Shown one piece after another: positions 19,946 to 59,700 of a stretch of 64,000 nucleotides of DNA (positions are counted from its first letter, which is position 1; every line of letters begins with the position of its first letter). A program made the position numbers and the translations under genes. Below the pieces are notes generated by a model. It ran no database searches and had not been told where the DNA came from. It saw nothing but the letters and a program-made list of their open reading frames with translations. Origin of the DNA: Lytechinus variegatus (taxonomy: Eukaryota > Echinodermata > Echinoidea > Temnopleuroida > Toxopneustidae); NCBI RefSeq assembly GCF_018143015.1, contig NC_054754.1:26004330-26068329 (forward strand), in the 5' to 3' direction.

Positions 19946-22900
19946 TTAAACGAGAATGAAGTGTCTTTGAGGCGGGAGAAGGACTTGGTCGACAACATGG
20001 ATGACTCCGTTGGTGGTGGGGATATCACGCTCGATCACTTTTGCCGTTTTGGACAGATCAGCCAGTGTGTTCAGGAAAATTTGATCTAAAAAAATTGCAA
20101 GAGTGAAAGGAGAATGATGAAACTATTTACGCAATTACGCTTGTACCGCGGAAAACAGAAATAGACATGATAGAGAAAATGAAAAATTCAAATTTAAAGA
20201 GAAAGTGATAATGGGTTTACTCATATCATGTGCATGACCATTCTCCCAGTGGCCTGGTCCATCGAAGAGCAAATTCAAAGAAAAATGACATATCGCCTAT
20301 TTTCGATAGCTTCGTGACATTTTGTCACATGATCTATATGAAAGGGGGAGGGTGCTGAAACACCCCTAAGATTTACCCGGGTTGAGCTTTTTTTTTTTTA
20401 ATTTTATTCATTTCATTATTTCCACAAATCCGTTATGTTACAAAACTTTAGGTCAAGTTAACCTCAGAAAAATGTTGAAATCAATAGAGAAAAATCAGAC
20501 AAGCACAATGCTGAAAATTTCAAAATCGGATGTAAAATAAGGACATTTCAAATTTTCGCTTATTTTTAACAAAATAGTTCTATGAACGAGCAAGTTATAT
20601 CCAAATGAGAGAGTCGATGATGTCACTCACTCACTATTTCTTGTTTTTGTTTGAATTATACAATATTTTAATTTTTACGAATTTGACGGTTCGCACCTCC
20701 TGGCCTGAAGCACAAAATGTTAAAATAAAGGGAGGAATAAAACTTCATTTCACATGACGAGAAAATAAAAATATTTCATATAATAAAACACAAAATAGTG
20801 AGTGACGTCATCAGTTCCTCATTTGCATACCGACCGAGATGTGCATAAAATGCCATAACTTTCTTATTTTACATAAATCAATTTTCTGTTTGGGTGGACT
20901 TGTCCTTTAACCTACATAACTAAAACAATTAACCATTACACACGTAGAGTATAAAGTATAAATAGCAAGCATTCTTAAATACATATCAATAGATGTTTAA
21001 GTACATAAAAAACGGAAAAGTGTAGGAAACCTTATAGCACCCCTAATAAAAATTGTGATGTACTAAAGTCCTTTCACCTTTAGTTAAAATGTCAATTTTC
21101 CCATCCGATTGATAAAAGTTTAAGTCTTATGCGAACTAAAATAAAATTTCTTGATTCAAACATTTGAGATTGCCGGCCTATTATAATAAGGGTAAATTTT
21201 CGATTTCGAGAACAAAAATGGGGGTCGATTGAAAATATCCTACCATCATTGTCGCGGGTGATGAAAACATCCTGTCCATTTGAAGCTTGGATGCGTTGTC
21301 CAGACGACAAGGAGGCAGAATATCTGACGTCAGAGATCACGTGGTATCTGAGCACGTTGCGAAGTTTTTCGCTATCGCGATCGAGGTCGTTGACTACATC
21401 CATTGGGAGCTCCATGAAGGCGTCAATGGTTGGTACAAGAACTGTGATGGGGTCCGATTCTGGAGGAGGATACCACAAAAATTATGTAAGGCTAGTTAGA
21501 GCAACGAAATGCACGAAATGCACATGAAGTGAAGAGGTGATTGGTCGAGGTCTGGGGGCGTTTCATTTTTGTCTGACAAGTTGACATCTTTCCTTGATTC
21601 TGATTGGCTAGAGGCACTGTTACTATAGTAACTGTCGGATAAAATGGGACTTGGCGGATAAAACGTCCGACAAGTCCTTTCATGAAACGCTCCCCTGATA
21701 TTACCAACACAATGTGTAATAATATAGAGTCTGTGCTAAATCATGCTAATCATGATGAGACTCTTACGAACAGATCTTTTGGTTGTAAAAAAAATAGTCA
21801 GGAAAATTCTCTTCTGCAATACTAAAATCTCATTCTGCAAAACAGTGAATATCACGAAAATCGGATGTTGGTGATACTATACGAGCTAGATGCACGTCAC
21901 GACACCTAATGTAATAAATTAATGCTAAATTACAATAGGATTCATTGGCAAATGAAATCCCAATTTACTTGGAGAAAAAATTTACAATCATTTAAGAAAA
22001 CCTACGCCTCTTTTGTATTTGTGCTCACTGTGTCACATAGAAAGAAAAAACAAAATTAACATTGACCCGATATTTGTGACTAATCTTACCGAGTTCATTT
22101 ACGAGGTCGGCTTGGCGCACGAAATTGATGAAGACGGAGAAGACGAAGTTATCTCCCAAGGTCTCGATGACGTCACCAAACGGAAGTGGATATATAACCT
22201 TGTCGACTACCTGGATTAGTCCTTTGGCGAATGTTACATCGGCGTCAACAATGGGAGCACCATTAACAGTAAGCACCTGAAAGTAAATCGTTAGTAAAAT
22301 GGATATATAGGAATGGTTTATTCTTTGCAATATACAATAACAGTGATTTCTCTTCATCTATGTGAATTCTTGTACTTGCAAGAAAATCCGCTTATTACTA
22401 TTTATGTTAAATGATTTCATACACACTAAAGTATGGAAAGTGTAGATTTTCATTAAGGAATTTTAAATGAAATGTTTCTTCAATTATCTTCTATATGCAA
22501 AAACGAAATAAAATAGTGTGCAATTTGAATACATATGGTTTAAGATTTGATCATAAGGTCAAAATGGACGATTTCATGCATTCAGAATTACCTTCTTGAC
22601 GTCATCACGGTAGATGTTGAATCTCAGCTTGGCGCCATTCAAGCTCTGAACCTTCTGGTTGTCTCTGATCTCCGTTGATCCGATCCTTTCGGAAATAATC
22701 CAAGCCTTGACCAGGTTCTTCAAAGACTCCTCCTTGTCCGGTCTCAGGCTTTCGGGGAGTTCCTGCCTCCACTTCTGGACAGCCTTGTCACTGGGCATGC
22801 ACAGAGTGACGGATGCTAAAAAGGAAAATATTTTATGAAATTCAGTGAAAATGGTATAAAAGTGAGCTCTGTAACTGGTTGAAAAGCAAATAATCAGATC

Positions 22901-23591
22901 GTTAAATCGCAGCGGAAAATATTGTATTTACAGGCATTGGCGGCGGAAGCCAATAAATTTAGGGGGTGTCCACCTGAAATTTTTGGATGGACACATGTAA
23001 AAAATAGGACAAGCGACCCAAAAATTCTTGAGAAGCAAAAAAAAAAAAAAAAGGTCAACCTAAATTTTAGGGGGAGACAACACACGTGTCAAGGGGGTCC
23101 ACGTGAATTTAGGGGGGACGCAGGAAAAAAATTGACAAGCAAAAAAAAAACAAAACAAAAAAAAAAGGTTATCAAAACAAAATTTAGGGGGGGACCGTCC
23201 CCCCACCTAAAATTTAGGGGGGACACGTCCCCCCCGCTTCCGCCGCCTATGTTTACAGGCACACAAAAGAATTAACCAACATTATTGTAACGCGTCTCTT
23301 GTTGAAATACTAGGGAAACTTACAAACATCGCTGTCTCTAATGATCGACCTCAGATCGACCTGCAGGGCGATGGCCGCTGCCTTACGAAGTCCCATGTCG
23401 TTAAGCTTCTCGACGATGTCCTGGCTCTCTTTTCCGACAAAAGCAACGTCAGAGCCCTGAAAGACTCGTTTCAGGTATTCCTTGGACGAGATTTCCCTGT
23501 TCTGTTGCTTCAGGTCGTCGGACGTGACAACCATCGGGTTGGCGAGAGCAGTCCCGACGAGGACGGTCAAGAATACGACGAAAGACTGCAT
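19946..23591 (-). CDS. Secreted two-domain FAS1 (fasciclin) protein, complete, 344 aa
   Basis: FAS1 domains are extracellular adhesion modules, as in TGFBI and periostin. Five exons on the minus strand, all GT-AG and in phase: 23591-23324, 22815-22592, 22276-22090, 21459-21244, 20085-19946; 1035 coding bases ending in TAA. Residues 1-18 (MQSFVVFLTVLVGTALAN) form a signal peptide. Domain 1, about residues 58-195, has the TLCMPSDKAV strand and ends VVDKVIYP. Domain 2, about 199-337, has TVLVPTIDAF, the conserved RYH of the H2 region, and ends NGVIHVVDQVLLP. There is no transmembrane segment or obvious lipid-anchor signal, so it is probably a free extracellular-matrix protein. The start is the second in-frame ATG of the open frame; it gives a clean signal peptide and lies about 75-100 bases after a TATA box. 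Family call firm; exact orthologue unknown. Confidence 0.92.
20450..20910. mobile_element. Copy of the GGACAAGTCCACCC inverted-repeat family, left end worn
   Basis: The right end GGGTGGACTTGTCCTTTAA is intact; the left end is degenerate (GGTCAAGTTAACCTC). Internal text such as AAAATCGGATGTAAAATAAG and GTGAGTGACGTCATC is shared with the copy at 51167-51775. It lies in the last intron of the FAS1 gene. Confidence 0.75.
21554..21695. mobile_element. MITE, GGGGCGTTTCAT family
   Basis: Ends GGGGGCGTTTCAT and ATGAAACGCTCCCC are inverted. The core shared with 33101-33259 and 53863-54110 includes CTGTCGGATAAAATGGGACT and a TGATTGGCT block. It lies in intron 3 of the FAS1 gene. Confidence 0.8.
22937..23251. 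mobile_element. Inverted-repeat element with a 10-bp target duplication, in FAS1 intron 1
   Basis: Direct repeat TTTACAGGCA at 22927-22936 and 23252-23261. Ends TTGGCGGCGGAAGCC and GCTTCCGCCGCCTATG are imperfect inverted repeats. The inside repeats AATTTAGGGGGG and long A runs. Like 17675-17873, the long target duplication suggests a Mutator-like element. Confidence 0.8.
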
Positions 23592-23691
23592 TTTGAAGCT
23601 GTTCGATGCTTGATGGTACAGACCGAGAGACAGAGAGACCTGTGGCAAGGAAGCAGTGACAAGGTGTACCGAAATAGGGAAAGACACTTGT

Positions 23692-32401: not shown

Positions 32402-35400
32402 CTATGATCGCATGTTATCGAAGAGCTCGATATGTGTGTAGTTCTTGAAGTGGGGTTTATCAGCACACAACTTGTTGTCACCTAGTCCAATGTGCTTCGG
32501 GTCATTGTTATGCATCATGAAAAAGCAACTGCAGAAGAAAATGGAAGAGAGGGATGGGGGAGAGATGGAGAGAACGGAAAGGGGAAAATAATTATACAAA
32601 AAAACACGTACTATAAGCCTAATTCATTTAAATTTGTGATAAAAAATGAAACAACAAATAATACATTTTGATATTAACCAACAAAAACAAAAAAATGACA
32701 AAGAGTCAAGCGACATGATGACCATTAATAAAGGCATGACAGAGTAAACAGACGTCCCGATTCGAAAAAAAAACGCACACAAAAGAAACATCAAGATAGT
32801 ATCAACACAAATATTAAAGGCTTAATCAGGTGATCGTTTCATAAAGAGTTCCGATTCGATTGCAATTATGGCATCGCGACCAAGGGAACCTTGAAAGTGA
32901 TTGGCTGCTGAGCAGTGGCCCGCGGGTAGTTGTCATAAACACAAAGTTACAAACGTTGTAAGATGTTTATGAAAAGGGCCCTGGTTTCTTTGGGGGAATT
33001 TCTACAATCAGTCGCCTTCTACAACGCACCAATACCTTGGAAAATGAAAGTCAAATCACAATGTACAGCTGAGAGGTTTTTGTCGAAAAAGGTTGGACCT
33101 GGGGAGCGTTTCATCAATATTTTCATCCGACAAGTTGTCAGATCTGACATATTTCCATGATTTTGATTGGCTGAAAGGCACTGTTCCTATGGTAACTGTC
33201 GGATAAAATGGGACTTGTCGGATAAAACGTCCGACAAGTCCTTTCATGAAACGCCCCCCGGGACAGCAGACAAAAAAATGCAAATATATGGTTTTCACAT
33301 ATAGTCTAGGACGTCACTGCCGTTTTGATTTACCGATTTGTAATTGGCACGTTTTTGACAATAGATTCTCTGCGTTGTAGAACGTGTCTGCGTCGTAATT
33401 GCGAAAATTCCCAATCATGATATAATTTTATTCAGAACACCACTTTCAACTGCATTACTTGAATCCTTGTAGTATACCCATTTGGGTGATGCGACAGTCA
33501 CACAGGCGAGATAGACTCCACTTAGGGCCCCGTCTTTCATATAATTGATCTGATCAATCGCAAGTATTATGGAAACCCATCAATGTCATAATTTTTTTCT
33601 TTAGGAAATTTGCCTAATGTCCTTTGAAAACAAAGAAAAGCATACTTATTTGTCAATAAAACGTTGAATGTATGTATATAAAAGTCATCATTTTTTGTAG
33701 AAAATATTTCGAACAAACAAGTATTTTAGATTTTTGACGTTGCTGGCTTTCCACTGAATACGCTATTTTTAATAGACATGATAGAGGTCTCTTGTAGTTC
33801 AGTTTTGTTGATGTGACTTCAACTTTACTACTTAATCCCACCGCTGCCACCAGAAAGTTTAAAACGTGAAATATAGTTAACTAATGACCGCATTCCACCT
33901 GTATGCTGTGGGTGTCTGACATAGTTTTCTCCTGACCTCACCCAATGGACGAAAATCCCAGGGGGACGCATCCCCCTAACAGTTGGAAAGGGGGGCATTA
34001 TATTAAATGTCCCCCAACTATTTGTGGTCTTTTAATGAGAAAAAATACATCATTAAAAAATGAAGAAATGACCTTACATTTTGGGTGATAATCTTTTTTT
34101 CTCTCTTTTTTTTTCTTTTTGCTTGTCAAATTTATTTTGGACAAAAAGAAGTTTGGTTGTTTACCTTTTCTTGTTTGCTTGTCAAATTTTCCGGGGGAAT
34201 CCTGGATCCGCCCCTGGTCCCTCTACCTTTGGGGAGAGGTTTCCGCCATGCCTCATTCCCCCCCCCCCTCCCTCCCTATGTTCTCTCTCATATAAAAATA
34301 AAAACGAATTTCTATGAATCACAATTTCGCGAAACATAGCATAAAGTAAACCTAATAATGCAACATTTCGTAATCACCTACTGGCAGGCAGATTGGGGGC
34401 TTTCGGACCATGGATCCCCGATTTTTTTACGGCTACGAAAAAAGGGAGGAAGAAAGAGTAAGAAGGGAAAGGGGAAACATAGGACTATATTATTTTCTGG
34501 ATATTATGTCAAAATCTATCACAAAATTTATTTAGATTTCGTATTGAAAAGGTAAAAAATTTATGCTCTCTCGCAGCTTTTTTTTTTCCTTATTTATTTA
34601 TTTATTTATTTTTAGAAATGTTGCCCCATACGTCACATCTGCCCCCTCTTTTTTTTTCGGGGGGGGTCATTACGCTAATGATCTCACCTTGTCTGAGGTA
34701 ACCCTATCTCGGTCTCGCAGAACGTCAAGAGCTTGCCCGCGCGCTCCCGGTTTAGGTCTGGATCTCCAGAAACACCAATGGCATGGAGCTCGAAGAACCC
34801 CCAGTCTGCTTCTGGTTGAGCCGCCCTGCACATGTTCTTGCCCGTACGGAGCTCGACGGTGATGGACTGAAAGAAGCAGTAATGAAAGGAAATTTAGAGG
34901 AATAATTACAACATTTCTCACTGGGAATTAAAGAAATAATAACCTTGATTAAAAAAATAATAATAATAATAACATTGATTACTGATTGATGCGAGAGATA
35001 GGCGGCACCACGGGGGGGGGGGCAGGGGTGGCCACCAAGTGCTAATGAGAAAACAAGAAGAAAAATATGTGGAGAGAGAGGGAGAAAGAAGAAAGATGCA
35101 TATAGGCCTATAAAAGGAAGAGGTTTAGCGACCGTTTCATTAAAGTTGGCATTATTGAAAAATCGTAATTCTCCTTCAAGTTACCATACTAAAGTCATTG
35201 TCACACCGCCCGAGCGTTGTTGGAGCGGTCGTGGAGCGGTAGGGAGAAGGGGTCGAATTTCGCTCACTAAATTGGCGAAAAAATAAAAAACAAAAATCGA
35301 AAACAAAATAACAACAATCGAAATAAAAAATGGTGAACGGGAGCGAGCGGTGATGATTTTTTTCCCTCCTCTCCACGACCGCTCCAACAACGCTCGGGCG

Positions 35401-35964
35401 GTGTGACCATGCCTTAAAGCCTGGTCACACCGCCCGAGTGTTGTTGGAGCGGTCGTGGAGCGGTAGGGAGAGGGGGTCGAATTTCGCTCACAAAATTTGG
35501 GAAAAAATTCGAAAAACAAAAATCGAAAACAAAATAAAAACAATCGAAAATGGTGAACGGAAGCGAGCGGTAATGATTTTTTTTTCTCTCCGCTCCGACA
35601 ACGATCGGGCGGTGTGACCAGACCTTAACAGTCAAAGGCCAGTGCTTAGTCAATTAAAACCAAGCACTTCACTATGTCAATACTGACAATCTATTCAATT
35701 CTAAAAACTTTTACGAAACACACCCCACCCCCGCCCCTCCTCCCCAACACTCAATATTCTGCACAAAACACAATACTATTTTCATCATTTTATTAAGGAT
35801 AGATCCCCCTCAACCGAAACAACAACAAAAATTACAATGGTACGAGTTCGACTTACCGCTTCGTTTGACCCCGTCAACTCCGAAATGATCTTTGACAGCT
35901 TTGAATGAATCTCATCATTGATGCGATCAGAAGAAATGTTGGTATGGAAGATGCAGAGAGGCAT
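32402..35964 (-). CDS. MIF / D-dopachrome tautomerase family protein, complete, 137 aa (MIF-like A)
   Basis: Macrophage migration inhibitory factor family: small trimeric cytokine-like proteins with keto-enol tautomerase activity carried by an N-terminal proline. Exons on the minus strand: 35964-35857 (108 nt), 34866-34688 (179 nt), 32528-32402 (127 nt with TAG); borders GT-AG, phases agree. The start MPLCIFHTN keeps the catalytic Pro that becomes residue 1 once Met is removed. Exon 2 holds the family core ADWGFFELHAIG (compare LHSIG of MIF). The Cys-x-x-Cys redox motif of vertebrate MIF is absent, and the active-site Lys of the TGK segment reads TGS. After the C-terminal strand (CFFMMHNNDPKHIG) there are about 20 residues beyond the usual MIF length of about 115. 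Leaderless, as is normal in the family. A second family member lies divergently at 38755. Family call firm, subtype not. Confidence 0.9.
32835..32981. mobile_element. Worn MITE of the GTTTCATAAAG family, in MIF-like A intron 2
   Basis: Left CGTTTCATAAAGAG and right TGTTTATGAAAAGGGCCC are inverted; GATTGGCTGCTGAG and AAGTTACAAACGTTG match the 4094-4253 copy in type. Confidence 0.6.
33101..33259. mobile_element. MITE, GGGGCGTTTCAT family, in MIF-like A intron 2
   Basis: Ends GGGGAGCGTTTCAT and ATGAAACGCCCCCC are inverted. The core CTGTCGGATAAAATGGGACT is identical to the copy at 21554-21695. Confidence 0.85.
35190..35416. mobile_element. Inverted-repeat element, first of a tandem pair
   Basis: Ends GTCACACCGCCCGAGCGTTG and CAACGCTCGGGCGGTGTGAC are exact inverted repeats. 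GGAGCGGTCGTGGAGCGGTA follows the left end. It lies in intron 1 of MIF-like A, directly before a second copy. Confidence 0.88.
35412..35628. mobile_element. Inverted-repeat element, second of a tandem pair
   Basis: Same family and orientation as the copy at 35190-35416, ends CCTGGTCACACCGCCCGA and GGGCGGTGTGACCAGACC. The two copies share the junction CCTTAAAGCC and differ by a modest number of bases. Confidence 0.88.
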
Positions 35965-36995
35965 GTTGTTCAGGAATCTTTACTTGGCGCCAAAAACAAG
36001 GGAAGTTCGGTGTTTAATGTGGGTCAATTATTCAAGCTGAAGAGCGGACTAGACCGGTCAAGAATATCAGAATAGAATGAATGATGAATTTCAAATACCT
36101 TGCGTCAAATACGAGGGGTAGAATTTTAACATAAGACCAAAAACAAAATGAATGGTAAACTAGTAAAGTGGAAGCTCAAGAGTAAACTACAGAAGAATAT
36201 ATCAGCTAGGATACAAAATGAAAATGTTTACTGGTGCAATTTAATGATTATCGAGATAAGCAAAGGCAGGGCTGTCAGGACGAAAATAAGATGGTCGGCA
36301 TGGTAGGAATATCCGGGGGCACAGAAAATTCTCATGATCGGTATACCAGCATGTTAGCCGATCCTCACACAATGGAACAGGGGCGATGCCACACGGGGCG
36401 GGGGTCGAACGCCCCCATGATGTTCAAGAAATTAACAATATTTCTACATGAAGAGAGGAAAACGGGCAAAGAAGAAGAAAGGTTGTCAGCGAAGATGAGA
36501 AAGGTCTTGTAAAGGACTTGATCACGATCGTGAAATTCGAAAACAAAATCCCCATTTTTATTTTTCTCCTCTTGGGGTCATTTGCCCCCCCCCCCCCCTC
36601 TTAACATTAAAACACACTGCCTACCTCTGAATTGTAATAGTACCAGTATTATTTTTTGTGGGGTTTGCGTGCCATGACAGGGGATTCTAAATTTTTATTG
36701 TCATATGATGAATAGGAAGTACGTTCCAGATATAAACTTTCTACTGGTAGTATTTCAAAGATGTAGTTACAAAACACTTCATTACATATACTGTGAAAAA
36801 TAAGCGAAGGTTGGTGATGGTGTACGTTGGTTAACCCGTGTTGATTTCACACCACTAAGTTGCAAAGGAAATTCAACCAAATGTACAACAGGTGGATCAA
36901 ACAATATTTGTTGCTAGATAATTTTTTTTAAACAAGTGCACACCTAGTTACCAGTAATGCATATAGCATTTCCATTTATCTGAAAGCAGGATAAA
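35965..36995. other. Shared upstream region of the divergent MIF genes, proximal part
   Basis: Between the two MIF starts (35964 minus, 38755 plus) lie 2.8 kb. This part has no clear TATA box, and a small C-rich repeat at 36375-36415. The open frame at 36234-36512 has repeat-like content and no splice support. Confidence 0.4.
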
Positions 36996-37120
36996 AGAGC
37001 ATTGTAGATTAAATGCCTTGCTCACGGGCATAGGTGCCGCGGCCGGGGATCGAACCCCGGGCTTTTCATGTATAGCCACGGCGCCTTAGACCACTCGGCC
37101 ACGGCACCTGCTAGATAATT
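36996..37120 (-). repeat. tRNA-derived SINE head (Ser/Leu type)
   Basis: Read on the minus strand from about 37110: GGTGCCGTGGCCGAGTGG (A box), then the B box GGTTCGATCCC and the matching end CGGCACC. The anticodon arm does not fold and the T arm is displaced, so it is not a tRNA gene. Beyond it comes GTGAGCAAGGCATTTAATC, a phrase typical of SINE bodies. Confidence 0.75.
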
Positions 37121-38754
37121 ATGACTGTCGGCCCGATTTTGGGTGTACACATGATGTTTTATTCAGTCAACAGTTACTGAGAGCGCGTAGCGCGAGCGAA
37201 ATTTTGAATTTTATAAAGACCTGAGAGATTTATGTTGACATAATGTTGTTGGGAGCTAACAGTGAGTGGATGAGAAAATTTTCAAAATTTAAAGAACGAA
37301 AATTAGTTTTGGAGCACTTTGCAGATTTATTAGGATGCTTATGACAACAATAATTACACATCTTTTTTTTTCCAGAATTTTGGGTGGGGGGAGCAAGTGG
37401 GGGCCAATTCATTGGGACAAAGGCCCCCGTGCCTCCCTCTTGGTGACGTCACTGGTCTGAAGCGGAGCCCCCGGAACCTCGTGATATTTTAAACACTGCA
37501 GATGGCCACTTAATTATCTAACCGCGGGAACATACACAACACATAACTTTAAAGCAGTTGCGGATAATAAATGAAATATTTTGAGGCAGCACAACATAGC
37601 AATTGTGGTAAAATTTGTAAAAGAAAAAAAAATCGCCAGGGAGCGAAGCAAGTCAGAAAATTTTGACTTTTATAAAAAGATTTTGAAATTAAATTCTAAT
37701 TATGTGATAACAACTTTGAAAATTTAACCAAAGTAAACATTGAGAGGTTTGTACGGTAAATTTAACAGGCGTAAAACTTTACTTATAGGTTATGATCGAC
37801 CTAGGGGGTATATAACTAGCCCTTGGCTAAGGATCTTTTTGTAATGATTGAGACCGTTATTGCAATAAAAAAATTAGCAAGCTTGTAATATATGCCATCC
37901 ACCTTTTTATCCGTTCTTTCTATTTTTAAATCCTCGGCAGCTCGCTCGTGTTATTGTGTTCTTTTTTTTCTTGTCCCTTTCTTCATATTCTGATTTTCAA
38001 TTTAGCTTTTGACTCTACCTTCATTTCCCTTTCTCTTTGCCTCTTTCTCCCATTTTCCCGCCATTCTTGCCTGTGCCATTGAGTCATATTTTTAATTAGG
38101 TTTTCTGGAACTACTCAGTAACACTGTCAGTAAATCTTTAAAATTGTATACAAGCTAGTTGACTATATGATTCTTACAGAGTTCCATGAACAGTTTAAAC
38201 AACCTTACAGTTTGTTGTTTAAGAATTAAAACGCATTGTTTAAGCCGTTTAAACGACACTACTGCAAAGATCTTTAGTCGAGGAGGAGAAGGAGAGACAG
38301 AAATAAAAGAAAACACAATTTTATAGAATAGGAATAATAAGAATACGATGAAGAACAAAAACTATATTATGAAGAAATAGATCAATTATTATTGTGATCC
38401 ATAAACCCTAACGACGTATGCATACCCCCCCCCCCCATTTGCATAAATTTGCGTTCTCTCGGTTCACTATTTCTAAACTACTAGGCCTATACTTTTGATG
38501 GTACCCGCATTGATAAGCCTATTCCTCTCTCAAAAGTGAATTATCTTTCACTTTGTAAGGACAGAATTTTCCAAGTCTCCATTTCGAAATCCTATCGCTG
38601 CCAGGGCAAGATTCCTGAAAATTAATTCCCTTCGAAATAAGGACAAGCGGCTGGAAAACTCGAAAGAAGAACAAGTTTGAAATTCATCAGTCCATATCAA
38701 TATCATCTGGGTTTTTTTGCCTGGTTTCGGTTGCCATATTGGTGCTTATTCAAG
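37121..38754. other. Upstream region of MIF-like B
   Basis: Contains a fragment with GAGCGCGTAGCGCGAGCGAA (37180) of the GCGCGAAGCGCGAGC repeat type, a G/C-rich element end near 37380-37450, and a C run near 38430. No exon or firm promoter motif seen. Confidence 0.4.
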
Positions 38755-41700
38755 ATGATGCGTTGTGTGGTACATGTGAACACGCCAGTCAACAAACTAA
38801 GCGATGGTTTCAGGAATCAGCTGACGACTATGCTTTCAAAACGATACAATCTTGAAAAAGGGGTGAGTTTTGTATTTATGTATTCTCCGAAATTCACAAT
38901 AAAAAAACAAATGAACATATAAAAGCGAGATATAAAATAACAAGTAAGAAATAAACATATACAAAGAAACAAACAAACAAATATATATATATATATTATA
39001 TATATATATTTATATACATATATATATATGTATGTATACCAAGAGGCATCAGGATGGTGAAAACGGAAGGACACCCATTTCAGCCCTGGTCATAGACAGT
39101 ATACTGTTCTTCCATGGGTTCCAAGGATCAAAACACATTGTAATATAAGAAAGTCTTACAAACGTAATTATCTTAGACCTCTGGAGGGGGGGGGGGGGGT
39201 AACCAGTATCAAATTCAAAATACTTCATAGATGAGAGAGGAAGGCAATGAGCCTATATGTAAGAAGACTGTGAGACTACAAGGCCTTTAGATTTGCAGGA
39301 AGGTTAGTGGACAGAGATTAATTGAGAGTTTCATTACAATATTATTACAATGAGTATAATATTGGCTAATTCGCTTAGGTAATGGTTATTGCACCCGACT
39401 GCTTAGAAATCGCAACCAGGATGCCCGAAGTTTGAGGTTATATCAGAGGGTTTTGATAACGTTCTCTTCTCACTCCTTGCTGCATCCGTGCATCCGGACT
39501 AAAATAGGGCGTCGAAATTGTCCATTATTCTTGCGCTGAGCGAAAGTCGTGCCTTTTCAAAGCTTCAGCCGGCAATTGTCATTAAAATAACTGTGATTTT
39601 TAAGGGGCATGCGAACGATTTGCGAATGTCAAAACATGCTAAGTCAAACTGCGGATCTATAAGGGACGCCCCCCCCCCCCCTAGCGGCGCAAAAAAGGGG
39701 AAAAAAGGGAATACAAGAAAAGGATGGAAAGGAGAGGAGAAACAAAAAAAATAAGAGGAGGAAGAGGAAGGAGAGAGGAGCACTTGTAAAAAAATCATGT
39801 CACTATAAAAAAAATCGCTCGCATTTCATACATGTGTTTGCTCAATATAAGCTAAAATGGTGCTAAAAATATTCAGCCTGGAAGTCAATATACAAAACAA
39901 ATTTCAGATCGTCCATCGAGCTTTTTTTTTTGTTTGATTTACAAATCGATTATTAAAGAAGTGCTCTGTAAAAGTCTCGTTTTTTGGTCTGAATATAAAA
40001 CATTTTCAGCACGTGCTGCCCTCTCGCATTATTTGATTTTTGAAGTACCGTCGTACCTATTCTCTTCGTGTATTATATTACTTCTCAAAACATCCCTTTT
40101 CAGGTCTGAATGTCAAAACTTATCAGCTACCGCTGTGCGCTCGCATTTTGATCAGTGAGATACTTGTACTTCTATTTAAATCCTAATAAAAAATACTGTA
40201 AAAAATATTGGGTAAAATTGTAACTAGCACGAGGGTAAGTACGTATCCAACCAATGAGGGGAAGTATTGTACCCAATGCGGGAAGCATATTTTCCAGTTA
40301 GGTTAACAAAATAAAATAAGGAGCAATTACTTTAGAATGGCATAATTTTCAATGCCCAATGTTGGTTTCTTGGACACATACCTACTCTCATGGATCATTT
40401 TTACCCAATATTTTTTTAGAGTGAACTTTAGATCACCTTTTCACGAGGGTTTATCAAAAAATTTCTGCTCACGCTTATGTTAAAAATATATTAACCCATG
40501 TATCTTGTTCATAAATACAATAATGGTTGAAATGTCCAGTTTTCAGGCATAGGCTTTCTAAGATATCCTTTTCATGAAATCTTAATCCTTGAATTGCACA
40601 CTTTTCAGATCGGAATATCAGCAATTTTCAGCTCGCGCTATGGAAAAGGAATAGAAAGATAGTTACTCTTTTCATATTTATGATGACAAAATGTGATTAA
40701 AATGTCTTGTTCCTATAGGTCAAAATAATGATTAAAAAACCCATCGCGCTCGCATCACTTATTTCTTTCCAGCACAGTGCCTGACATAATGCTTACATTG
40801 ACCCTTTTCAAATCGGAATATCAAAAGTTTGCTGCTGTTGCTTTGCACTCGCCATTGATTTAGGATGATATCCTTTCCTTTCAAGATGAAAAAAAAGTGT
40901 TTAGAATGTCCAGATTCTATGTTTAAATTAAAAAAAATGATTATAATCGAAAAGCTTTCGCATCGCGCGTGCAGGATTATTGAGATACGCAGTTTGTGCT
41001 TTATAATACCTACTTACGTTATCCAGTTTCAGAGCAAAATATAATGTTCAAAGCATCGTCAAAAATAAAAAAAAAAAATCTGTTTTTACGGCCCCCTCAT
41101 CATGTATAGTGTTTTTATTCGTAATTTGTTATGAAAGCTTCGTCAAAAACGTTCGACATTTGTTCACAAAATCCCAAAACGTTCGACATTTGTTCACAAA
41201 ATCCCAAACCACATAGGATATTTTACCGAAAGTCGCGGTGTTTGCATAATAAAATGTCGTGAATATGAAGTACAAATTGCGCAAGAATGGTCAACGACCT
41301 CATTATCACAAGAAAAAATCTTCTCCAAATCGAAGGCTTTACAATTGTTTTTTTTTTTTTGGCTTTTCGCCAAACGTGTATGGCTGGAATCCTGGCTTTC
41401 CTTTCGTGGGATCGTGCCAAAACCATTCGCAAAATCAAGATTTTGAAATCCTCCTTAAACAACTTTTTGATCGGGGGCAATTTTCTTATCAGTAAAAAAA
41501 CGAAATTAAGAAGTCAAGTTTGACTCGGAATGGTGCCAGATGGTATTTGACGCTGTTTCAAGTCAAAGTGATTCGATCATTTCCTAGTTACGTCGACTCG
41601 GAACTGAATTATATTTAGCTTATGTTACAACTGGCGCCAGTCACAGACCCTTCTTTTTATAATCATTTGTTTATTCCTTCATTCAGTTTTCCCTTTTTTC

Positions 41701-43720
41701 TCTTTTTTTTTCCATACTACTTAGTAATCAAAAGGGAGGTTGAGTTCCCCCCTTCGGTTTCCAGTGGGAAAAATATTTTTGTGTGTGTCAGAATAATGGA
41801 TTAAATTTCACATGCACATGTTGCGCAAAACAATTGACCCAAATATTGTGTACGGCGTGAAAGGATATATATATTTGATTTTATGGAAGCTTCTTTAGAA
41901 ATTTCTGGGCATTTTTACTTCATGGATGCAACCGAAACTAATACACCTTCGTCGTGTTTATTGAACTAAGAATTTAAGACATTTTTGGTCGTTGTCGGTG
42001 CCCTCCCCCGATATAAATCATAAATTAATTACGAAAATTCTTAAATGCCTTTATATCTTTCAAGGTTTGCCTATCAGTGACGTTAGCACTTTAAGAAATA
42101 TATAAAATGTGAGATTTAATTTGGTCTTAATAATCAGATGGTAAACGAATTATATATGTCTGCTTATTTCTTAGAACATCGTCGTTTTACTTCGAGAAGG
42201 TCTCCGTCTTATGCGAACTGGGACCCTGGATCCATGCGGGTATATCGAGCTCTTTGGTTGTGAAGGTGTGTTTGACGACGCGGAGAAGAACAGAGAGGAT
42301 ACAACGGCTCTTATTCAGCTATTACAAAAAGATTCAGGGATACCTCAGGCAAGGTACATTCCCCCATTTACATTTTTGGAAAGAATTACATACTAAAAAC
42401 AAGTAGGGTCATAGCAGTAGCGGACCGTGACCCGGACGAGACAAAGCATTGGGGGGGGGGCACTGCATTGTCTGTGAACAATGCCGTGCCCCCCCATGCT
42501 TTGTCTCCTCCGAGTCACGGTCCGCCACTGGTCATGAGGCTATTTCTTTAAGTTATTATTATGTTTTATGAAGCCTGACAATGGACCAAAATTTCTACAA
42601 AGCTAGGAATGAGAAAAATAACACATTTAAACCTTTTTTCAATATAAACTTCTTATTTTGTGATATATTTTGACATGATATTGAGTTTGACCCTAAACAG
42701 ACTGGGCTATTTATTGCCTAAGAAGACGGGGGGGGGGGGGGGGCTGAATGATCTCGACCGTCAATCACGTCGATGACACTCCCATTACCCATGGCATAAT
42801 CTAAACAAAAATAAAATTGAAAGATCAAATTCTGTGAATAATCTCACTGCTAATTAATTATGCCAATTTATGAAAAAAATCAAAAGTTTGCTCTAATTAA
42901 TTAAATAATGCCCCTAAATGGCTTTCTAAATTTCTTATATGCATTTCTTTGTTTTTCGACTTGTCAAAGATCTCATTTTGACCATAAAAAAGGTGAAATT
43001 AATTAATTTTAATCAGTAAAAGGAAAAATAATGACACATTTATGAATTTTTGCTAAAAACACCATTTGCATTGGATTTGTAAATGAATTCACGTTTTGGG
43101 GCTACTTTTGGTCAGCATGCATGCACTTACGAAATGTTGCGTAATTTCGGAACCATGTACCCGGGGGTCGCAATTTCGGTCTCAAAAGTTGCGCGAGACT
43201 TAAAAGTTATAAGTCAGCGAGCGACACGGTAAAAAAAAATTGCGCGGCGAATTAATTGTGAAAAATGTTGAGGGGGGGGGGGCGGTCCCCAAAGTATTAT
43301 TAGGGTTAACCCTTTTTCTTATCCTTTTTTTTCTTTGTCATGAAATTGTTGTGGGTCATACCCCGAGTCCCCCCCCCCCATCCGACGCTATTGGTCCACA
43401 CATTATTTTTTAAATGCTGTTCGGTTCCTTCATAAATTCATTTCAAAATTACAGGAATATATTGATTGGCTGTAACACTGCAAAAACACTGGTGTTGATT
43501 AAACATCAGCCCGGCATCTATATCGGTCCACACCAGAGAGGGGTTGAAATAACAGTTAAAAATCCGACCAAACCGATATTGGTACCTTTTGTATATGTTT
43601 CGGTTAGCTTTATAAAATAACTCGTTATCATATCATTTCAGACTCTTCGTACTCATGAGACCTCAATGGAGTTCTAACTGGGGACAGATCGGTGGACAAA
43701 GCTTGGTCATGGATGCCTGA
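38755..43720 (+). CDS. MIF-family protein lacking the catalytic proline, complete, 121 aa (MIF-like B)
   Basis: Same family as the protein coded at 35964-32402. Exons on the plus strand: 38755-38862 (108 nt), 42175-42353 (179 nt), 43642-43720 (79 nt with TGA); all GT-AG. Exon 1 and exon 2 lengths and both intron phases (0, then 2) are the same as in MIF-like A, strong support for paralogy and for both models. The start is MMRCVVHVNT where A has MPLCIFHTNI; whichever of the two adjacent ATGs is used, residue 2 is Met or Arg, not Pro, so classical tautomerase chemistry is not expected. The core is GYIELFGCEG and the end RLFVLMRPQW...GQIGG, like VGW of MIF. A further in-frame ATG at 38677 would add 26 residues with a hydrophobic stretch; I prefer 38755 because it equals the paralogue's exon length. 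AATAAA at about 43888 is a possible poly(A) signal. Confidence 0.9.
38978..39035. repeat. (TA)n microsatellite
   Basis: An interrupted TA run with TATATATATT and ATGTATGTATAC. It lies in intron 1 of MIF-like B. Confidence 0.9.
39790..41060. repeat. Decayed tandem repeats with GCTCGCATT-type cores
   Basis: Cores such as ATCGCTCGCATTTCATAC, CCCTCTCGCATTATTTG and GTGCGCTCGCATTTTGATC recur at roughly 100-200-bp intervals with CTTTTCAGGTCTGAAT-type text between. This is a worn, inverted version of the array in 27752-28815. It fills much of intron 1 of MIF-like B. Confidence 0.6.
41148..41207. repeat. Short tandem duplication
   Basis: About 29 bp beginning ACGTTCGACATTTGTTCAC occurs twice in direct succession, identical in both copies. 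Confidence 0.9.
42415..42529. mobile_element. Short palindromic MITE, 115 bp, in MIF-like B intron 2
   Basis: Ends CAGTAGCGGACCGTGAC and GTCACGGTCCGCCACTG are inverted repeats, flanked by GTCAT-containing sequence on both sides. It starts about 60 bp after the exon 2 donor site. Confidence 0.85.
42728..42745. repeat. Poly(G) run
   Basis: About 18 consecutive G on the plus strand. Similar runs occur near 39187 and 48297. Confidence 0.9.
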
Positions 43721-49774: not shown

Positions 49775-52700
49775 TTACTTGCAAGGAACTCTCTGACCAA
49801 CATGGACGCTAAATATAAATGCCTTTTGTTTGAGCACTCGCTCGGCAAAGGCTTCGAATGGAACATTGTTACGATACTGCAACAAATAACAGAAGATTTT
49901 TAAATATAAAGTTTGAATTTTCCTTTTTTTTATTACAGGAAATAATTATACATAAATAAAACAAATAATGATCTTACATAAATCTCTTGAAGTGTCCGAT
50001 GTAAAATCCCGAAGTGATGATGCTATATCCAAGTAATAATCCAAATGATAAAAATCCCAGTTGACTGGCGAAAATTCACAATGATGGCGATGATGAAACT
50101 GATGTTGAAGTCCGATGAATAATAAGAGTCACTGCAACGAGTTGAAATGTCCGTGAAGACGATGTTGATGATGATTAACAGTCAATTTCAGCAATCCATG
50201 GGTTGAAGCGTGTTCATTGAACAGGTTGATGATGTTGATGATCTCGATGAGAACTGATAATTTCTCAAAATAACTGCAAACAGTTCATTGATGCATAAAC
50301 TACTCTGATCTGATCTGGTGAAGTGATCTCATATGATGTGATGTGATCTCCTGCTCTCATATGATGTGATGGTGTGATCTAATATGATGTGATGATGATC
50401 TTGAAAAATCTGCAGCTTTATATACTAAGTTTCAACTAATCTAGAAGCTTCTAAAAAAATGTCACCACCATAGAAGGTTCTAACACCTTCTTCCAAAAGA
50501 ACATTCTCCTATAATGGAGCAGTCAAAAATCCAGAACACTCTTGAATGACCTCATTGAAATCAACAGTGTGTCAATAACATAGCTAAGCCTATTGTTCCT
50601 AATCTCTATTCAGAAATAACAATACAACTCCTTGGCCTTTTAAATAGGCAAGGCCTGCATAATAAAAAGACATTCTTGAATGTTCTTTACAATTCTTGGC
50701 TATCCTTAAAGGGAAATAACTAATAGATGAATGTAATTGCTTTTAAATTCTTCTACAATTATTCTTATATATAACAACATTGATTGTAATGATACTATTG
50801 TCACTTATACCGAATAATAAAAACAAAGACACAGGAGAGATAATCATTTCATTTGATGAATTTAATAGATTTATTTTCACAATTGGTAAAAAAATAAAAC
50901 AAAATCTATCAAACATCAGGTACAATTTTCAAATGAGTTTACATGTATCTTTACAGAATACCATGGAGTCTTGTTCTGGCAATGTATAATTCATCATCGA
51001 GTCCTCTATCACAAAATAGTACTTCATTTGTTTAATCATCGAATGATTAAATCTAACTTTTTAAATGGCTAAACATTCAAAGTAGAGAGTTGTGATCGGT
51101 AACAAATAACTGCTCTGCAATACTGTATTAACAATTATTATGTCTCACAAAAGTGAAACTGAATTTCAAAGGACAAGTCCACCCCAACAAAAAGTTAATT
51201 CGAATAAAAGGAAAAAAAATCCAACAAACATGACACTGAAAATTTCATCAAAATCGGATGTAAAATAAGAAAGTTATGACATTTCAAAGTTGTGCTTGAT
51301 TTCACAAAAAAGTTATATTCAAATTCTTGTCGATATGCAAATGAGGAGACTGATGACATCACTAACTCACTATTTCTTTTGTATTTTATTATATGAAATA
51401 TGAAATATTTCAATTTTCTCCGTTGTCGTGTGAAACAACGATTAATTCCTCCCTAAACATGTGCAATTACATGTAGCATTGTTTAATACTATATGGTTCA
51501 ATCAAGTTGGTCTTTATTGTCAAATCTGTAAAAAATGAAATATCGTATAATTCAAACTATAAAAAACCAAAAAAATAGTGAGTGACATCATCGACTGTCT
51601 CATTTGCATGTCACTGAGCTGTGCATATTACTATTTTGTGAAAAATAAACGAAACTTTAAAATGTTATAACTTTATTATTTTACATCCGATTTTGATGAA
51701 ATTTTCAGCATAATGCTTGTTTGATTTTCTCTATTTATTCAAATCAACATTTTTCTGGGGTGGACTTGTCCTTTAAGAAAAAAATAAACATGTTATTGAC
51801 CATTGAATCAGAATCATGAAATAGTCAATTCATGAAGATTAATCTATAGAAATAAGCCATTTTTAATTAAGTCATTCATTTAACAACCTATTGCATTTAT
51901 ACATTACAAACTGCTGCATCTTTGTAGTCTTGTCACAACAATTAACAAAATGATCTTTACCTGATGTAGCAACAGGCAATCATTATACACATGATCATTT
52001 TTCATGCTTCTGAAAGACTTTAATTCAACTTCATGGAAGGTGACACAAATTTTAGAATATTTTCAATACCTTCATAGAATGTGAAAACTTTTGAATGATT
52101 TTGTGATAACATAAACCTTACAGTTGATACCTGATATCGCCTTTGCAATCTATGGATTTGATCTTGGCTGAGGATAAGATCTTGCATTTAAAAAAGAACA
52201 AAACAAAGAACTTTTAGTTCTACATCTATGACAGGATACATGATAATAAATTGTTCATATTACAAACAAAAAACAAACTAGTTGAAATATTCCTCTTTTA
52301 TTTGATACTGTTCGGAATCAGTAATGAATTCATTATTAGAGAGTTTCCAAACTCTTCCTGGTCATCTATGCATAAACTATTCATATTATACAAAGACTGT
52401 AATCAATTGGCTATATTGAGTATAACTGGGAACCACAGTTTTCTTTTTTGTGGGGCACACTGTATGTAGCTAAAGAACCTTTGTGACAATACACATTATT
52501 TCTTGAGTTTGATGTTTCTTCATACAATAAAGGACATTTAGTGAATATAAAAAAACGCCTTGCCTGATCTGGCTCCACATTCATATTTGGTTTATCAAAT
52601 TTTTGTTTCTATTTTACAATTCATGCTGTATGTATATGAACATGCATTTATAAGCAATAGGTAACAAATTTAAAAAGTTGAATAAGACAAAAACAACGCC

Positions 52701-54443
52701 AAAAGAAGTCATGGACATGTTGTGTCCGTGTACATGTATTGTACAATATACTCAAATAATGATCAAATAATAAACAATTTAGAAACAAATTTCTGTCTCA
52801 CAACGAAAACAGAGAGATGAGTCGTGTGATGAATTTACGTCATAAACAGTAGGTGTTGGAAAGAGTTGAACCTGAAAACACAACAATAGCACATGTTTTG
52901 TTACAGATTGAAAACATGTCATATCAAATATTACTGGCCATAAATGAAAAACTTAATCATATATCATTTACATTCATACTCACACACAAATTCATATCTT
53001 TGAAAATTACGAGTAAGAGAAACGAACATTGAGTCACTATTCGCTGAACTACAAAAAAAAAAATCAGTATTCAAATACCAATTAATATTTTTATCAGAGG
53101 TACTAAAGGCAAGATTGGTCTTGCATTCAAGATAACATGATTTCTTGGTCGTATGCAAGTAACTTGAATAATGAAATATATGCTGTATTGCCAATTAAAA
53201 TTTGAAAATCATGATTAGGGATTTTATAACATCAGAGTCTACATGATTTATCATATTTTGTTTATATGTGTTTTGAAATTCAACATTACATGACATAGAA
53301 ATTATGAAATATCATAAGACAAAAATGACTGTCATAAAAAATCTATCGGAATGTAGTATGTCCATGATTGACAATAACTCTTTTCAAAAATTTAAAAAAA
53401 TGATTAAAAAGCACACAACCACACATTTCAATGTGTTTTTCATATGCATTACAAGGGAATCGCTATAGTAAAATGAAAGGTATAAAAGTATTTTTCAACA
53501 AATCTTTGATTATACTTGAAAATCCATTTAGATGTTCTTTTGTGCTTCAAAAATAAATGTATATTGATAACATTATCAAATCATCAATAACATTGCGTAT
53601 GAAACCATCTCTCTTCACAAACATGTATGTTCATATGAATGAGTACTGTATAAATGGAACAATTTTATGTATACTAGCTACATACCCAACCAGTACAATA
53701 CTTATCAAATTTGATCACAACATACTGATACATGTCAATATTACCACAAAATCGGACGGGTTAAACGTCAAAACATTGGCAGGATCATTCCCCTGAGCAT
53801 GCTTAGTCAAAATTGTCAAATTGCCATACAACACAAAGGCTGGATGACCTGTGGAAGAACCAGGCAGCGTTGCAACTGTATTTTTGCGACAAGTTCTCAA
53901 ATCTGACAACTTTTCTTGATTTTGATTGGCTGAGAAGCAGTAATCCTATGGTAACTGTTGGATAAAATGGGACTTGTTGAACGTTTTATCTGACAATTCC
54001 TGTTTTTATCCATAGCCATCGGGACTGTGCTTCTAAGCCAACTTAAATCAAGGAAACTTGTCTAATCAGAAAACTTGATTGAAGGACAACTTTTGATGAA
54101 GCGCTCCCCTTGGAGACCATCATGTGCCAAATTAAAGTCTAGTTTAAAGCCATGTTCTAAGTAACTCATATTGTTCAAAGTATGGAAAGCCAAAAGTGTC
54201 AATGTTATTTTACAATGTTTCTTTTGTTGATTGTGTCCTTTCCCCATCCTTTAAAGGTGAAGGAATGTTTTGAGATATTATTGAAAGACAATTATGAATG
54301 AATTGAAAGATTAATGTCACACTTGGCCATCCATAGTCAAACCATAATTTTAGACCAGAACCTAAGTTTAACCTGAGTACAGAATATAAAATTGTATTTT
54401 TCATTTAGATTGTACTCTTACCGGTGAGGTACATGGGATCCAT
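49775..54443 (-). CDS. Unrecognised small gene, spliced model of about 86 aa
   Basis: I do not recognise the product. The model joins minus-strand segments with GT-AG borders and agreeing phases: 54443-54422 (start MDPMYLT, Gly codon split), 53848-53745 (begins GHPAFVLYGNLTILTKHAQ), optionally 52871-52839 (VQLFPTPTVYD), and 49876-49778 followed by TAA (YRNNVPFEAF...VGQRVPCK). The third segment is a multiple of three, so it can be included or skipped without changing frame. The TAA of the last segment overlaps a possible donor (AA before GTAAGG), so the gene could continue. The product has no signal peptide, no membrane segment and no motif I know. It starts about 950 bp beyond the end of the amine oxidase on the same strand. 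The second and last segments look coding in composition; the rest is less sure. Confidence 0.42.
50416..50507 (-). promoter_or_regulatory. TATA-box segment with three AGAANNTTCT palindromes
   Basis: On the minus strand TATATAAAG (50424-50416) is preceded by AGAAGCTTCT (50452-50443), AGAACCTTCT (50481-50472) and AGAATGTTCT (50507-50498). AGAANNTTCT is the core of heat-shock-factor sites. What it drives is unclear: a possible donor (AT before GTAAGA, about 49975) could join it to the exon at 49876, or the whole segment could be part of an old LTR-like repeat whose borders I cannot fix. Confidence 0.45.
51167..51775. mobile_element. Inverted-repeat DNA element with GGACAAGTCCACCCC ends, 609 bp
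   Basis: Ends AAAGGACAAGTCCACCCC and GGGGTGGACTTGTCCTTT are perfect inverted repeats. The arms carry AAAATCGGATGTAAAATAAG and its complement. No coding frame. It lies in the last intron of the unknown gene model. Confidence 0.88.
53863..54110. mobile_element. Diverged MITE, GGGGCGTTTCAT family, with extra internal sequence
   Basis: Shares TTGATTTTGATTGGCTGAGA and GGATAAAATGGGACTTGT with 33101-33259, with a worn left end (GGCAGCGTTGCAAC) and right end GATGAAGCGCTCCCC. Its left border is only about 15 bp from the acceptor of the exon at 53848. Confidence 0.7.
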
Positions 54444-56783: not shown

Positions 56784-59700
56784 AAGTATTGGGCGATTCC
56801 AAGTACAGTGTTGAAATCCGGTGTTGTGACAACACCAACACCAGCCACAACACCATACTTGAAATGATGCTGGTGTTAGAATGGACCTCAGGAAATATGA
56901 CATATTTCCAGTAGTTCGTGTCAAGCACTAATATTGAATGTAGGGTGCCGAAACGAGCATCACAGCTGGTGTCGACGATCTACATGAATGTGTAATTTCC
57001 CCATTCACCAACACTAACCCCCGGGATTGGGAAAATCATGATTTCAAGTTCGGTGATGGTGTTGGTGATTTGAAGCCCACTAACAGGCAGCGAACAGGAT
57101 GAAACATCCCCAATAAAACTCATCTGTGTATTCAGTAATATCCCATGCTTTACCTCCCGACACACTGGCTAAGAAGTTAATGACTATTCAAAAGTAATTG
57201 CATCAATAATTATGGTGAACCTCAAGGTACCATTGTAGGTCCTCTCATAGTTGGTTGGATACTCACCTCATCTCTGTATTCAATGATGTCCCTCGCTTCA
57301 TCTCCCAACACATTGGCTAAGGTGTTAAGGGCTATGGTCTTCCTCTCATCACTCTGCATACACAAAATAATCATTTACTTTTGTGAAATGGTGAACAACA
57401 AAAAAATCATTACGCATATGATTTAAAAAAAAAGATTCCTTCTTTAATCTTACTCTCTTCATTTCTTATTAAACTTGTAATTAAAAAAAAATCACCCATG
57501 GGCCAGCTAGTAATTGTGGTCCATTTGTGTGATAAACAGAATGAAAACTTATAAAATCTCTTTCTAAAAAGATAACCCTAATATCTTATATGTACTGAGG
57601 AGACAACCCTCCCTTCAGAAAACAAACATGAATAAATGAATAAAATCTATAACTCAAATATCCTTCTTATCTTTTTTTATTATATATATTCATTGATAGG
57701 TCCTCTAATTTTTCTATTTAGCTGACAACATGCTCAGGGTAAGTGGCCCCTTTAATGCACAAGCTAACCAGCTTTTACAGTGTGAAGATTAATCTAATTT
57801 TGCTCCTCAAATTGGCAACAATCATTAATTTTCATTCATGTTCATAACATGAAGATCAAATATGGTATACCAAATCAGTCATGTATGTTAATAACAAAAT
57901 TTTAAAGAATGCAGTTTTAATCAATTATTCTGTTATTTTCAATGCATTGCCAATTCAGAGATTGTAATGACTACATGTAGCTTAGGTTGAATTTGTAATA
58001 TTTTAAGGGCACTTACAGTCATCTTGGCAAAGCATGGTGCGGAGAACAAACCCATGAGGGCCGGGTTTCCATTAGCAGAGGTGTGATCAAAGAAAGCAAT
58101 CAATGGAAATTCCTTCTCATCTTTAAAGCCTCCCAGAGTACCAGCCATGCTCAGGAACTCTCCAGCCATTTTCTGGTTTCTCCAGAAATTCTGCAAGATA
58201 GGAGGGAAAAGGTGATGTTAAGGCCACCGCACACCATACGATTGGTCCGCGACCCAAATTTGGAATAAAACATAGTAAGATTTGATCTGCATATAAAGAC
58301 ATCTTACTGTGCAAGGTTCTTAATCATTGTTCAAATCTGTGACTATGCAACCATCCTCACTAGAACAAAGTTGAATTGAATATCTAGTTGTAATGAGGTC
58401 ATAGAGGTTGAACGATTGACTTCGATTTAAAACCACTTGGACTTTACTCCACAATAAAGGCTTGGACCTGAAATAAAAAGATACTTTTCATTCACATTTT
58501 CAGAAAATAAGCAAAATATGATTTGTTTGAAATTCAGAACATGGACCACTTGTAACAGGTGTGTGGAGGCCTTGAATTTAATGATACTTGTGATCAAAGA
58601 AAGAAATCAATGGATATTCAAACTCAATTGAATATTTTTCACTTACCGGTATACTCCATATACCTTGCAGAGAACATTAGCAACATGAAAATAGAATGAT
58701 TTAAACTATAAACTACATTAAAATCCTTCCTTTTTTTTAAATTAACTCTTTGCCCGCTTTATTCAACTAGAGTCACATACAGCAGGCTGCCAAGTTTGAC
58801 TCAAGTCACATTTTATTCACAATAGACAATGAGTGCATGAAGTCTATTGTTCATACACACATACACTAAAGTGATGTGTGCTTCGAATTGTACTGTGAAC
58901 GCACAAAGCTTTTCTTCCAATTAACCAACCAAAAGCTATTATTGTGAGCTGAAGTCCATGCAGAACCACTTTTAAGGTTGAAATTAATGTGGCGCAGGAG
59001 GGCAAAGAGTCAAAAGCAGAAAAAAATCTGACGATTTACCTTCTTGTATGTAACAATAAAATGCACTCCATAATCCCAAGAAGGGAGCTCGCGGGGTACT
59101 TCAAGGGACGGGGAGAACTCCATCTTACCTGTTGGAAAGAAAGGGGGTGGGTGAGTTCAAGGAGAGAGACAATTAATTGACAAATAAATAATATAGCTAT
59201 TCAAATAAAATGAATTCAATTATTCCTGACCCTATTCAAGATATTCTGGTATTTCAGATACATATCATCTTGCATTGTGATAAGCTATTATATTCTTAAA
59301 TATCTAAACAAATAAGCTGGACAATAGCGCAGGTATTTATACCATATATAAAAGATAATACTAAATTCGTTCTGAGCCATCTGTGTTTTTACTTAGCCAG
59401 TCACATGGTAATAATAATAATATTAATAATGAAAATGATAATATTAATTGGTCCTTGTCTAGTGCTATCTATCAAGAAATAATCTATTCTGAGGCATGCA
59501 AGTATTATCATCTCAGCTGCAGCTCCAGTTGCCATTTCCAGTACTTGGTGAATTCAAGGAATATATCCTGATGGGTACCATTTACCTAAAGGCCTGGTCA
59601 CACCACCCAAACTTTGTTGGAGCGTTCCTTGAACGGTAGGGAGAGGATGTCGAAACACCAACGCTCGTCACCGTGCACAAAATGGGGGGAAAAAACAAGC

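Follow-up and report, generated by a model that had tools for sequence, protein, structure and literature searches.

Two strongly diverged MIF-family genes in a head-to-head arrangement with the family's exon layout in Lytechinus variegatus

A head-to-head pair of MIF-family genes

We analysed a 64-kb stretch of DNA from Lytechinus variegatus (hereafter the window), in which two predicted MIF-family genes, A and B, are arranged head to head. Gene A lies on the minus strand and runs from 35964 to 32402, and gene B lies on the plus strand and runs from 38755 to 43720. The spliced proteins are 137 and 121 aa long, respectively. Both models are based on homology and splice consensus, and have the following exons.

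35964-35857, minus strand: exon 1 of gene A, coding, 108 nt, with a Met-Pro start and the donor gtaagt
34866-34688, minus strand: exon 2 of gene A, 179 nt, with the acceptor ctttcag and the donor gtgaga; tblastn match to exon 2 of B
32528-32402, minus strand: exon 3 of gene A, 127 nt, ending in TAG
38755-38862, plus strand: exon 1 of gene B, coding, 108 nt, with a Met-Met start, without proline, and the donor gtgagt
42175-42353, plus strand: exon 2 of gene B, 179 nt, with the acceptor tttcttag and the donor gtacat; tblastn match to exon 2 of A
43642-43720, plus strand: exon 3 of gene B, 79 nt, ending in TGA

The initial annotation had described two MIF-like genes in this orientation with starts 2.8 kb apart, equal first (108 nt) and second (179 nt) exons and intron phases of 0 then 2 in both genes. 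We observed exactly this arrangement, the two start codons being 2790 bp apart (35965-38754) and all four introns being of the GT-AG type. The third exons are of unequal length (127 nt in A versus 79 nt in B), a difference that is absent from that annotation. There were no frameshifts or internal stops in the three exons of A or of B, and the splice dinucleotides were intact at all eight positions. The N terminus of B could change with an upstream exon outside the model or with another start.

Next to these exons, the introns of A contain repeats. Two direct copies of ∼230 bases, 84% alike and partly palindromic, occupy 35180-35628 in intron 1, and a related stretch is found at 59585-59654. 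Intron 2 contains a dispersed repeat at 33101-33241, which is related to stretches at 21582-21695 (92%) and near 53863-54109 (75-83%).

Both proteins belong to the MIF family and are strongly diverged

When compared with the Pfam MIF profile PF01187, for which the curated cut-off is 22 bits, the spliced protein of A scored 38.8 bits (E 1.3e-9, profile positions 1-107 of 114) and that of B scored 41.4 bits (E 2.1e-10, positions 4-110 of 114). The family identity assigned earlier to both genes is therefore correct. The earlier description of the proteins as much diverged also holds, with 27% identity between A and B across 102 columns. They have motifs such as NRE and G[IL]PQ in common.

We also searched the unspliced window by tblastn with the two spliced proteins. 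The second exons matched each other, at E 0.007 with A as the query and at E 0.001 with B as the query; the first exons matched each other at E 9.2 only, and no mutual match was found in this search between the third exons. Using A and B as queries, tblastn detected no further MIF gene in the 64-kb window (next best E 0.71), a search that an equally diverged copy could escape. Among PDB sequences, the MIF chain 8vj2 was the top match to A, a weak one (E 1.3e-4), while the first 15 rows for B were all D-DT chains (best E 3e-7, among the best 60 of 97 matches). A search of viral contigs for relatives of B gave 12 pattern matches, and a search of bacterial and archaeal genomes for relatives of the A+B alignment gave five; none was confirmed in either case. 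In terms of family, A and B are ordinary and can be read as rapidly diverging representatives of an established cytokine family.

Several other features were observed elsewhere in the window. On the minus strand, open stretches at 21092-21478 and 22025-22357 contain parts of a Fasciclin domain (E 9.7e-16 and 1.6e-6, respectively), and the adjoining stretch at 23310-23687 (minus strand), which gave no Pfam match, includes by eye a signal-peptide-like stretch. The beginning of an adenylate kinase domain was recognised in an exon-like stretch at 1578-1925 on the minus strand (PF00406, E 2.7e-9). A direct repeat of ∼213 bases, 95% identical and offset by ∼195 bases, is present at 5227-5630. Long imperfect palindromes at 10412-11147 and 51168-51774, which match their own reverse complements at 74% and 72%, respectively, are probably remains of mobile elements.

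The DNA between the start codons

The two features considered in the region separating the genes are as follows.

35965-38754, no strand assigned: start-to-start gap, 2790 bp, candidate shared regulatory DNA
37033-37108, minus strand: tRNA-like element in the gap, reported by ARAGORN at a lowered threshold only

The gap had been put forward in the initial annotation as DNA that possibly regulates both genes. Its GC content is 0.384 and its CpG observed/expected ratio is 0.78, compared with 0.371 and 0.67 for the whole window, and we found no CpG-rich core within the 2790 bp. A bidirectional promoter usually means a spacing of 1 kb or less, and the gap is longer than this. Taken together, the features of the gap speak neither for nor against shared control. 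ARAGORN at its default threshold reported no tRNA in the gap, and Rfam gave no match at the gathering threshold in the window. The element at 37033-37108 is probably a tRNA-derived repeat or a dead tRNA.

The exon layout is inherited from the family

The exons of human MIF, which we take to be 108, 173 and 67 nt with the stop included, agree with the published 107/172/66 lengths, and the second human intron, presumably placed at an Arg codon, agrees with these lengths as well. They are reported as 107, 172 and 66 bp (PMC4641160), adding up to 345, or 115 codons without the stop. According to PMC4407349, the place of intron 1 is precisely preserved in human MIF, human DDT (the gene of D-DT) and three Arabidopsis genes, and that of intron 2 is common to human MIF and human DDT. 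The exons of the two human genes are described as similar in length, and the genes as linked on 22q11 (PMC5915168).

In an alignment of 13 rows (composition given below), intron 1 falls after residue 36, in one and the same column, in A, B, human MIF and human DDT. Both A and B have the three-exon layout with the intron places of human MIF and DDT, the human intron-2 codon being the presumed one mentioned above. We concluded that the layout of both genes is inherited from the family and long predates the lineage. As it is ancestral, the length of exon 1 and the intron phases are uninformative on the kinship of A and B; any two MIF paralogues could show this layout.

The equal length of the second exons was considered separately. 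Two opposite one-residue gaps were needed to align the 179-nt exons of A and B by blastp, phmmer and MAFFT alike, which places the extra residues of the two proteins at different positions. We therefore rejected the equal lengths as a shared derived mark; they are, at least partly, a coincidence. Chance as the explanation of the exon match as a whole was also rejected, since A and B are both family members with known family introns.

The initial annotation had read the exon match as the sign of an old inverted duplication. This step fails, as the same layout is published for human MIF and DDT, but a local duplication as such is still plausible in view of the phmmer scores described below. Taken alone, the common layout is no sign of shared control either. 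The lesson is that where two MIF genes agree in exon lengths and phases, the agreement stems from the antiquity of the family and not from a local event.

Kinship of A and B in scores and tree

The phmmer comparisons and the tree were made on 13 rows: besides A and B, the set comprised 11 PDB chains, several of them partial. More distant chains such as 1uiz, 2wkf and 3t5s lie outside this set, as do many MIF and D-dopachrome decarboxylase chains whose scores are almost the same as those of the human ones. We weighed two readings of how the pair arose. The first, that of the initial annotation, is that a local inverted duplication took place in this lineage and the copies then diverged rapidly, and we put it at about even chances. 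The second, to which we give a distinctly smaller but real chance, regards the pair as a relic of an ancient, vertebrate-like linkage of MIF and D-DT, in which A would be the MIF side and B the D-DT side.

Within the 13 rows, A and B are mutual best phmmer hits (34.8 and 34.7 bits), which favours a local duplication, as do their position as neighbours on opposite strands and common motifs such as NRE and G[IL]PQ. The next-best score for A is 25.4 bits; B, however, is nearly as close to human DDT (32.6 bits) as to A. The D-DT chains filling the first 15 PDB rows of B, among its best 60 of 97 matches, are in accord with an ancient linkage, and so is the linkage of the two human genes. However, A is nearer to human DDT (17.9 bits) than to human MIF (12.3 bits), which does not suit its assignment to the MIF side. 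For comparison, B scored 14.4 bits against human MIF, and human MIF scored 61 bits against human DDT; both A and B are thus distant from the remaining rows.

Some separation of the two genes was seen in their third exons. Among four targets, the D-DT tail gave the best alignment for exon 3 of B, with a score of 19 and a shuffle fraction of 0.07, and the MIF chain 9yya gave the best one for exon 3 of A, with a score of 18 and a shuffle fraction of 0.02. This is the distribution expected from an ancient linkage, but both scores are weak and each is the best of four.

For the maximum-likelihood tree, Treekit made its own alignment of the rows, of which 115 of the 140 columns were kept. None of its ten inner branches was starred, and seven of the ten were open. 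A and B sit on very long branches, with 5.7 and 8.48 changes per column, respectively, so that the placement of both is unsure. In the best tree, the partner of B is human DDT (support 61/63), and constraining A and B to a common group costs 3.27 log units (p-AU 0.232), which speaks against a local duplication without rejecting it. The costs of the other constrained groupings were 1.97 log units for A+B+DDT (p-AU 0.146), 5.80 for A+DDT (p-AU 0.071), 3.35 for A+human MIF (p-AU 0.095) and 4.43 for B+human MIF (p-AU 0.072). As p-AU exceeds 0.05 for all five, a clade of A and B is neither shown nor rejected, and the A+human MIF grouping implied by an ancient linkage is not favoured either. In a published cross-kingdom tree, a highly supported grouping of some echinoderm MIFs with chordate D-DT is reported, and most basal MIF nodes are described as unresolved (PMC6826473); the latter point weighs against tracing the pair back to an ancient linkage.

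A short match between the second introns

The best DNA match between the two loci has 27 bases, 25 of them identical (E 1.8e-5), and its copies are located as follows.

34501-34527, minus strand: copy in intron 2 of A, 161 bases past the donor, probably repeat-derived
42655-42681, plus strand: copy in intron 2 of B, 302 bases past the donor, probably repeat-derived

Both copies are in the second intron and run in the sense of their gene. A blended 27-base pattern allowing up to three mismatches occurred twice in the window, where no occurrence was expected, and when intron 2 of B was shuffled in two-base blocks, none of 200 shuffles scored as high. However, when 14 overlapping control stretches from the window were compared with the A locus, 8 gave a stronger match, mostly through longer repeats. 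With 200-base queries, the A copy matched 14428-14518 at E 0.0019 and its counterpart in B at no better than E 0.2; in the opposite direction, the B copy matched the A copy at E 0.19. The existence of a third site that scores better with the A copy than the B copy does suggests a dispersed repeat more than a remnant of duplication. When the complete second introns were compared with gaps allowed, the score was 969, which was equalled or exceeded by 20 of 60 control stretches, the scoring being too permissive to inform.

From its sequence relatives, the match is probably repeat-derived, and it could still be a duplication relic or a conserved element. In view of the third site, which favours a repeat, the match leaves the odds of a local duplication where they were. 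The ancestral exon layout and the gaps required in exon 2 also count against such a duplication. Overall, we lean slightly towards a local inverted duplication over an older linked pair.

Active site and likely function

The tautomerase residues of the family are given as Pro2, Lys32 and Ile64, and in a snail MIF with Pro2 changed, tautomerase activity is reported as undetectable (PMC2944803). Gene A starts with Met-Pro and has the catalytic N-terminal proline, while B, given its predicted start, begins with Met-Met and lacks it. In the alignment of 13 rows, the column of human Lys32 (mature position 32) has Ser in A and Leu in B, and the column of Ile64 has Ile in A and a different residue in B. 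Hence, B has none of the three residues, and A is without the lysine only.

Since B has neither the N-terminal proline nor the lysine aligned with human Lys32, it probably has no tautomerase activity and would be non-enzymatic. A, with the proline kept and the lysine at mature position 32 not, may be a weak tautomerase. Proteins of the tautomerase superfamily without the proline may act via another N-terminal group, as discussed in PMC5818174, where 346 prokaryotic sequences of this kind are described, 495 eukaryotic candidates were first set aside, and non-enzymatic roles are named as one option for such members.

We consider it highly probable that A and B are head-to-head, protein-coding paralogues of the MIF/D-DT family with an inherited layout, both strongly diverged, and that B is most likely non-enzymatic. 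Each gene would have inherited the old three-exon layout of the family and then diverged strongly. We infer that both are expressed and that their products would take the MIF fold, form trimers and have a signalling role, with activity lost to the extent that the residue changes predict. Most likely, they would be small leaderless proteins of innate immune signalling, a role taken from the family, and B, without the proline and the lysine, would most likely be a non-enzymatic D-DT-like member.

The lost active-site residues of B and the very long branches of both genes would also fit a decaying pseudogene, one or both of the two, but the open exons and the eight intact splice dinucleotides make this unlikely. 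That the two form a co-regulated pair, with A as an active MIF ligand and B, deprived of the proline, the lysine and the isoleucine, as a dedicated modulator or antagonist without enzyme activity that might act in mixed trimers, is a very improbable elaboration.

On the preferred reading of two protein-coding paralogues, the loss of the active site is mildly interesting. The pair offers a small test case of MIF proteins in which the family sequence is kept and catalytic residues are lost, and it bears on whether MIF signalling requires the enzyme site.

Comparison with known systems

Human D-DT (MIF-2) resembles B in the Pfam MIF domain and in the intron positions, and its structure 1dpt is the nearest solved relative of B (E 5.7e-7, among the best 60 of 97 matches). 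Unlike human D-DT, B has neither the proline at the N terminus nor the lysine, and the two are much further apart (32.6 bits) than human MIF and DDT are from each other (61 bits).

Human MIF has in common with A the three exons, the phases 0 and 2 and the retained Pro2. In contrast to human MIF, A has neither the lysine nor the C57/C60 pair, its C terminus is ∼20 residues longer, and the score between the two is only 12.3 bits.

The echinoderm MIF family, compared here by description only, includes sea urchin mif5 and the starfish MIFs and is, like the present locus, a multi-gene MIF set. Starfish MIFs reportedly act on larval immune cells in chemotaxis work. Sea urchin mif5 is reported to be expressed in pigment cells (PMC7455242).
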